Of a stretch of 32,716 nt of DNA, positions 30,488 through 31,300 are shown one piece after another. Under the pieces are notes generated by a model, which saw only the letters and a list, made by a program, of their open reading frames with translations, did no database searches and was not told where the DNA came from. Positions within the stretch are counted from its first letter, which is position 1. Each line of letters opens with the position of its first letter. The stretch is from positions 1 to 32,716 of the IMG/VR virus record IMGVR_UViG_3300019776_000690. One strand, given 5' to 3'. Source of the DNA: a virus. Position numbers and translations under genes: made by a program.

Positions 30488-30517
30488 CTGTGGCGATGGT
30501 ATGCACTCTCGCCACAG
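30488..30517. repeat. REP-like palindrome
   Basis: CTGTGGCGA (30488-30496) and TCGCCACAG (30509-30517) form a perfect 9-bp dyad. The sequence resembles the REP elements abundant between genes in P. fluorescens genomes. It lies 11 bases after the stop of the minus-strand DUF6124 gene and has no T-run, so it may stabilise the mRNA end rather than terminate strictly. Confidence 0.55.
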
Positions 30518-30527
30518 GGCACGACGA

Positions 30528-30890
30528 TTACTCCTTCAATTCGACGTGATCCAGTGCCTGGTTCACCGCCAGTTCACCGAGCATGACCACTTGCGCAATG
30601 CCCAGCAGGGTCTTGCGATGTGAGGTTTCCAGCAATGCTGCGAAATTGGTGAGCATGAGGGTGGCCGAGCCGAGTGTTTCGCTGGCGTTGGCCAGCAGGG
30701 ATTCGGTGTTGTACTTCGGGTTGGCGAGGTACATGGGCTCGGGTTCGTTGGCCGTGGCCATGATCTGCGCGGCCGGGTTGAGGTAGTGGTCGAGGGCGCG
30801 CTCGGCGGCTTCGTGGAGCTTTTTTGAATCGAGTGATTCGTACGGGGATGTCGGGTCTGTGATCGGCGGATTGGGTGTAGGTTTTAACAT
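30528..30890 (-). CDS. DUF6124 family protein
   Basis: The 120-residue product begins MLKPTPNPPITDPTSPYESL, then DSKKLHEAAERALDHYL, and ends TLLGIAQVVMLGELAVNQAL. This is the layout of small Pseudomonas DUF6124 (formerly DUF3077-type) proteins, usually present in several paralogues per genome and of unknown function. It has no signal peptide; the C-terminal half is helical and moderately hydrophobic. The SD GAGGAG (complement of 30899-30904) is eight bases before the ATG and lies in a 9-bp stem with an upstream anti-SD, so translation is likely to be regulated by the leader. Confidence 0.8.
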   Translation of the reverse strand: MLKPTPNPPITDPTSPYESLDSKKLHEAAERALDHYLNPAAQIMATANEPEPMYLANPKYNTESLLANASETLGSATLMLTNFAALLETSHRKTLLGIAQVVMLGELAVNQALDHVELKE

Positions 30891-31300
30891 AGATGAAACT
30901 CCTCATGCCGTAAGTAAGGAGCCATCCAACCTCGCTACCAAACGAAGGGTGGCGGCCATGCGCAGGTTGGTAGACCGGGACATGAGGAGGCCGGCGCACC
31001 CGAAGGTGCCCTGTGCATGACCACCATAAAGCCGAGACGAAAAAACGCCGCGAATGGTGATGCTGTGCAAATCTCATGTACGGGCTACCAAACCCGATCA
31101 CTGTTTTCAGTGACCAGGAAACGATAAAACCCGCAGCCAAAGCGCACAAGCCGGCGGATTCTGGCGCAGGCGTAGGCAACGACGCAAGGCGTTGTAGCCT
31201 CGATGAAGTAACACCGGGTGTACTTAAACGCACCGCTAAACATCCAGGGTAAGGCGAGCGGATATACAGAGCCATGATCTCTGCATTCATTGACGAAGAG
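30891..31300 (-). promoter_or_regulatory. Structured leader RNA of the DUF6124 gene, SD-sequestering stem
   Basis: Read on the minus strand, CTCCTCATG (30989-30981) is a perfect complement of CATGAGGAG (30907-30899), which contains the SD. Within the loop, CTACCAACCT (30973-30964) can pair either as CTACCAA with TTGGTAG (30941-30935) or as CCAACCT with AGGTTGG (30932-30926), but not both. A second GTTTGGTAGC copy lies further 5' (31093-31084) inside a CGGG...CCCG hairpin and can compete for the same CTACCAA. Further stems are TCACTG-AAAA-CAGTGA (31113-31098) and CAACG...CGTTG (31177-31194). No protein-coding frame here has supporting features. Confidence 0.5.

Follow-up and report, generated by a model that had tools for sequence, protein, structure and literature searches.

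C4-type antisense RNAs in the leaders of DUF6124 and DUF3077 genes of Pseudomonas

A C4 antisense RNA in the leader of a DUF6124 gene

An RNA domain corresponding to the C4 antisense RNA family (RF01695) is found immediately upstream of a DUF6124 gene in the window, by which we mean the whole stretch of 32,716 nucleotides that was analysed. Because it matches the C4 model and repeats the order and pairings of the phage P1 element, this leader is, judged by its sequence, a C4-type RNA, which is a described kind of Shine-Dalgarno (SD)-blocking RNA and not a ligand or temperature switch. We consider it very probable that the leader is an operon head similar to that of P1 immI, in which C4 blocks translation of the DUF6124 gene, and that it belongs to a chromosomal cassette with largely separate antisense/target pairs in Pseudomonas. 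The features of the leader are as follows.

31121..31149, minus strand: putative promoter-like sequence, as read in the sequence, with -35 TTGTGC (31149-31144), a 17-nt spacer and -10 TATCGT (31126-31121)
31077..31127, minus strand: c4-a1b1 target element of two hairpins, the second being CGGGTTTGGTAGCCCG with a1 (RF03163, 44.7 bits, E 5e-10)
31085..31091, minus strand: a1 target TTGGTAG, complement of a', 150 nt upstream of the identical a2 copy (from sequence)
31073..31079, minus strand: b1 target ACATGAG, 7 bp with b' (from sequence)
30945..31031, minus strand: C4 antisense RNA, three helices (RF01695, 80.7 bits, E 1.6e-14, full length 1-87)
30979..30989, minus strand: b' loop CTCCTCATGTC, anti-SD, 11 bp with b2 (-19.6 kcal/mol)
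30967..30973, minus strand: a' loop CTACCAA, 7 bp with a2 and with a1
30935..30941, minus strand: a2 target TTGGTAG, which is GTTTGGTAG, just 3' of C4, complement of a' (from sequence)
30899..30909, minus strand: b2 target GGCATGAGGAG, with the SD sequence (from sequence)
30528..30890, minus strand: DUF6124 gene, 120 amino acids (Pfam PF19619, 65.8 bits, cut-off 27)

RF01695 is the sole Rfam family matched in the whole window, and its full-length score lies far above the cut-off of 45 bits. The upstream target element carries the two hairpins of c4-a1b1 RNAs at the expected place, although its score is about 2 bits short of the curated gathering score of 46.7. In an alignment of 44 sequences that includes phage P1, 96-98% of cells in the three C4 helices are paired, versus 34-45% in controls in which the whole structure was slid, and 20 of the 27 helix pairs covary through double changes. 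Two arrangements on which membership in C4 RNA depends are also present: a second target pair, a1-b1, is located upstream of C4, and a' and b' are complementary over 7 bp and 11 bp to a2 and b2, the latter lying just ahead of the start codon.

A preliminary description of this leader, made from sequence alone, had pointed to a 9-bp complement between an anti-SD segment and the SD region, and its pairings matched ours base for base. CTCCTCATG (30989-30981) forms nine Watson-Crick pairs with CATGAGGAG (30907-30899), enclosing 73 nt, and the extended b'-b2 duplex adds one G.U and one G-C pair to give 11. CTACCAA pairs with TTGGTAG at 30941-30935, as described, and of the two GTTTGGTAG copies the upstream one (31091-31085) is a1 and the downstream one a2. 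The AGGAG of the SD ends 8 nt before the DUF6124 ATG (30890). The chance expectation of about 0.0004 once given for the complement is reasonable as a naive estimate for a single 9-mer, but the real evidence against chance is comparative, namely the 80.7-bit model match and covariation at 116 loci. What had been overlooked is a stable three-helix RNA (31031-30945) that presents both antisense segments as loops. The proposal of a new ligand or temperature switch was wrong in kind, since the element belongs to a described antisense family; such a riboswitch is rejected because there is no Rfam riboswitch match in the window, and because the loop segments vary between copies and track their targets.

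Copy-specific pairing of loops and targets

We scored pairing as the longest complement of each loop, comparing its own target with every other target. In the complete genome of Pseudomonas sp. DTU12.3 (G025), pairing is strongly copy-specific between b' and the SD (z = 13.5) and between a' and a2 (z = 11.3), with neither value reached in 20,000 shuffles, and for 18 of the 26 C4 RNAs the best-ranked SD target is their own. In a second genome (G175), the corresponding values are z = 10.5 and z = 8.3, in a test that is only weakened by one mis-registered C4 at a contig end (L169). Across 116 distinct loci, which carry 70 distinct b' loops, z is 31.4 for b'-SD and 19.1 for a'-a2. The shuffles ignore relatedness, which is corrected in part by exchanging targets with the nearest neighbour whose b' loop differs; the own target was then better in 74 cases, equal in 19 and worse in 5.

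Other comparisons concern the individual targets. All seven a'-a2 pairs show double changes in the 44 sequences including P1, amounting to 78 cells where shuffles give 18.6. An SD-like tetramer is present at 96 loci, and at 92 of these it is overlapped by the duplex of b' with its target. Pairing with sites upstream of C4 is likewise copy-specific at the 116 loci, with z = 16.7 for a' and 11.9 for b'. In 98 of 102 loci a1 repeats the 7-mer of a2, ~64 nt before C4, versus 1.6% in loci with a different a2. Both pairings of the preliminary description are therefore conserved and covary across DUF6124 leaders, and these conserved, covarying pairings support its view that RNA-RNA pairing masks the SD of this gene and that the second upstream copy is able to compete.

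In some copies, such as L114 and L129, b' pairs with the SD region over only 5-6 bp, and therefore not every copy looks functional. The 102 loci contain only 22 distinct a2 targets, so that many a' loops are held in common and, as read from these sequences, cross-talk between C4 copies is possible.

The leader had originally been viewed as purely cis-acting, with the anti-SD folding onto the SD of the same molecule in a bistable arrangement set by a ligand, protein or temperature. Pairing in cis is sterically possible, as targets and antisense are on one transcript, and a local hairpin of GGCTCC with AGGAG could also hide the SD in the window. Nonetheless, we regard a cis-acting leader as very unlikely. 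Both b' and a' are loops within a three-helix RNA of very high predicted stability (-42.8 kcal/mol); this RNA shows strong covariation as a closed structure and corresponds to an antisense RNA known to act in trans. When the whole leader is folded to minimum energy, C4 remains intact and b' does not pair with the SD. The local hairpin is weakly copy-specific (z = 3.5), a signal far exceeded by that of the b' loop (z = 32), and it was rejected as the main mechanism.

Distribution of C4 RNAs in Pseudomonas

C4 RNAs are detected in 184 of 199 Pseudomonas genomes, versus 24 of 369 genomes of the class, where mostly one to three copies are found. About 70 of the 199 Pseudomonas genomes have at least 20 copies, and a more sensitive search of 20 genomes picked for holding DUF6124 relatives yielded 15-43 copies per genome. 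DUF6124 itself occurs in 158 of the 199. Of 105 DUF6124 loci, most of them retrieved through protein similarity, C4 precedes the gene in 98, ending 48-57 nt from the start codon in 97 and 100 nt from it in one. Of the other seven, one is at a contig end, two have a replaced leader and four are the second gene in a tandem pair. Most copies are preceded by a promoter-like TTGTSC-17-TATCGT/TAGCCT sequence: TTGTSC precedes C4 at 102 of the 116 loci, and in 75 cases a -10-like hexamer follows after a gap of 17 nt.

The G025 genome contains 26 C4 RNAs and 27 DUF6124 domains. Of these RNAs, 21 are followed on the same strand by a DUF6124 domain no more than 500 nt away; random placement gives 0.03 such RNAs on average, and no more than 2 in any of 20,000 trials. 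The remaining five precede a DUF3077 gene (one), small ORFs without a Pfam name (three) and a DUF6124 gene broken by a transposase (one). G175, by comparison, has 24 C4 RNAs, a single DUF6124 domain and 17 DUF3077 domains; 16 of its C4 RNAs immediately precede DUF3077, and a small first ORF often intervenes.

Several G025 loci depart from the usual arrangement. At L117 (G025:C1:2354210-2354298, plus strand) the DUF6124 gene of a C4 unit is split by a gene for a transposase that looks by eye to be of the IS3 type, and L154 is the remainder of that gene past the insert. At L160 (G025:C1:1386981-1387094, minus strand) DUF6124 is frameshifted and C4 is deleted, such that the a1 hairpin is almost directly joined to the SD. 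The DUF6124 gene at L145 (G025:C1:2613668-2613853, minus strand) lacks C4, looks intact and adjoins an apparent divergent regulator gene. L138, L139 and L140 are each the second DUF6124 gene of a tandem, lack a C4 of their own and are preceded by a palindromic GTAGGAGCTGCCGCAGGCTGCGATC repeat that is probably a REP-type element, judging from its sequence. In another case, L027, a C4-DUF6124-type unit (Orf1) resides beside prtR at the edge of a bacteriocin/prophage cluster (EU982300.1, P. fluorescens Q8r1-96 prophage DVM-2008), in a record where C4 is unannotated.

Genomic setting of the unit

Homology between the window and other copies ends at about 30490-31257, defining a unit of ~0.75 kb. 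Positions 1-26652 of the window are a Myophage-type prophage with integrase, helicase loader, terminase, portal, sheath, tape measure and endolysin genes. The unit is ~4 kb past the endolysin gene among host-type genes (SRAP, a YecR-like lipoprotein, LysE and MerR), and the right end of the virus record seems, from its gene content, to run several kb into host DNA. A copy in another genome (G763), 89% identical, also adjoins this LysE gene, with no homology there to the prophage portion of the window, and in five other genomes the LysE site has no unit. Given these host-type neighbours, the G763 copy and the five sites without the unit, it behaves, as far as the sequences indicate, like a discrete element of the chromosome that a site can gain or lose.

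The source is an IMG/VR virus record whose first 26.6 kb form a tailed-phage late region, and C4 is a phage RNA family, all of which would fit a cassette that is merely a gene of this prophage. The distance from the endolysin gene, the surrounding host-type genes, the LysE sites of G763 and the five genomes lacking the unit, and the dozens of copies scattered over chromosomes make that reading extremely unlikely.

Proposed regulation and relationship to known RNAs

In the annotated phage P1 record, the order of elements is promoter, a1, b1, c4, a2, b2, icd and ant. In P1 the a' loop (CTGTCAA) is complementary to both a1 and a2 and the b' loop (TCACTAAC) to b2, and 10 nt separate the end of b2 from the start of icd. 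The Pseudomonas leaders share with the C4 RNAs of P1 and P7 (RF01695; immI operon c4-icd-ant) the three-helix RNA and the order a1-b1-C4-a2-b2-ORF. As in P1, the partner of b' lies ahead of the start codon and that of a' adjoins C4. However, the next gene is DUF6124 or DUF3077 rather than icd and ant, and the Pseudomonas units are chromosomal, have 15-43 copies per genome and carry diverged loops. The window was also considered as a P1-type immI immunity operon, with C4 over icd and ant, but its next gene is DUF6124, which has no PHROG match.

By this comparison, a single transcript, probably starting within 31149-31121, would carry the a1-b1 decoys, C4, the a2-b2 targets and the DUF6124 gene. 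C4 would then be released, probably by RNase P; this cleavage and action in trans are both carried over from P1. The a' loop is predicted to bind a2 and the b' loop the SD (b2), on its own and on identical mRNAs, which would block DUF6124 translation, and the a1-b1 element may serve as a decoy that titrates C4. Lost translation may also terminate transcription early, as it does in P1. A phage-type immunity RNA would thus have become a widespread chromosomal cassette in Pseudomonas, with ~15-43 copies in rich genomes before DUF6124 or DUF3077. Divergence of the loops would leave most C4 RNAs matching their own copy best, as largely separate antisense/target pairs.

C4 RNAs of P1 and P7 are processed by RNase P and repress in trans (PMC5320573, PMC11143913, PMC8546580), and RNase P accepts C4 precursors as substrates (PMC5320573, PMC11143913). 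In Acinetobacter, RNA-seq supports processing of C4 from longer transcripts and suggests a GGW motif as the site (PMC5320573). The Group 1 C4-like sRNAs of Acinetobacter baumannii (PMC5320573) are also multicopy, chromosomal C4-type RNAs with variable target loops. There are about 21 copies in A. baumannii and their targets are unknown, whereas in Pseudomonas the likely target of each copy is the SD of the adjacent gene, and covariation is copy-specific. The occurrence of C4 in Pseudomonadales was already listed by Weinberg et al. 2010, as cited in PMC5320573.

IsrK of Gifsy-1 (RF01394; PMC4825925) is similarly a short upstream RNA followed by an ORF, and the a1-b1 hairpins match part of its model. 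IsrK nevertheless activates translation whereas P1 C4 represses it, and the window has no clear terminator. Membership in the IsrK family was rejected (34.5 bits against a cut-off of 50).

C4 RNA and the multicopy C4-like RNAs of A. baumannii are already known. The link to DUF6124 and DUF3077, the scale in Pseudomonas and the copy-specific pairs appear to be new, as we found no report of them in the open-licence literature. In that literature, C4 is described for P1, Acinetobacter, Xylella and Burkholderia or appears in Rfam lists, with no connection to either family; DUF6124 is absent from what was searched, and DUF3077 occurs only in an unrelated mutation list. In agreement with the preliminary description, no described riboregulator for the DUF6124 family was found there. 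The RNAs suggest a common, testable mode of control in most Pseudomonas genomes for two large families of unknown function, and a phage lysogeny RNA that would have become dispersed over host chromosomes, giving each cell dozens of diverged antisense pairs. They also suggest where the targets of the multicopy C4-like RNAs of Acinetobacter may be sought, and offer a natural library of separate antisense/SD pairs.

DUF6124 and DUF3077 proteins

The AlphaFold model of the DUF6124 protein has a low-confidence N-terminus and a confident C-terminal helical hairpin. The protein has no PDB match below E = 1, and neither a PHROG match nor a useful NCBIfam match. Because the L145 protein is matched by both the DUF6124 and the DUF3077 Pfam models, there are hints, at the level of sequence, that the two families are related; hhalign of one against the other, based on shallow alignments, is not significant (probability 2.6%).

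The cassettes might resemble type I toxin-antitoxin systems, with the antisense RNA neutralizing a harmful DUF6124 or DUF3077 protein. This reading is compatible with control by C4 as proposed above and concerns only the role of the protein, and we view it as possible, if rather unlikely. As in type I systems, an antisense RNA is predicted to pair with the mRNA of a small protein, here one RNA per gene and in a copy-specific manner. A toxin-antitoxin role would explain the many separate pairs and the presence or absence of the cassette-like unit at one site. The C4-lacking copy L160 is a frameshifted pseudogene, and Icd, the target of C4 in P1, inhibits cell division (PMC8198154). On the other hand, some DUF6124 genes without C4 look intact (L145 and the second genes of tandem pairs), and the predicted low-confidence N-terminus and helical hairpin are without a fold match.

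A broader proposal, which we advance tentatively as possible though less likely than not, is that Pseudomonas has turned a phage immunity RNA into genus-wide dispersed cassettes whose private antisense/target pairs each guard a DUF6124 or DUF3077 protein. The proteins might act as toxins, as antirepressors or as effectors of phage defence, and would be set free if C4 did not form or were titrated away, for instance by the C4-type targets of an incoming phage.

Small first ORFs follow some C4 RNAs. At L108 (G025:C1 near 586900, minus strand), C4 targets the SD of a 24-amino-acid ORF whose stop overlaps the DUF3077 start at ATGA, and the two genes are, from this overlap, likely to be translationally coupled; the arrangement is similar to that of P1 icd overlapping ant1. 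In G175, the first ORF after C4 at L167, L171, L175, L177, L180 and L186 starts M-x-K-I-V-P-D-P-P and is followed by DUF3077. This start resembles the M-x-K-P-T-P-N-P-P of DUF6124, giving two-gene units with an N-terminal motif in common.
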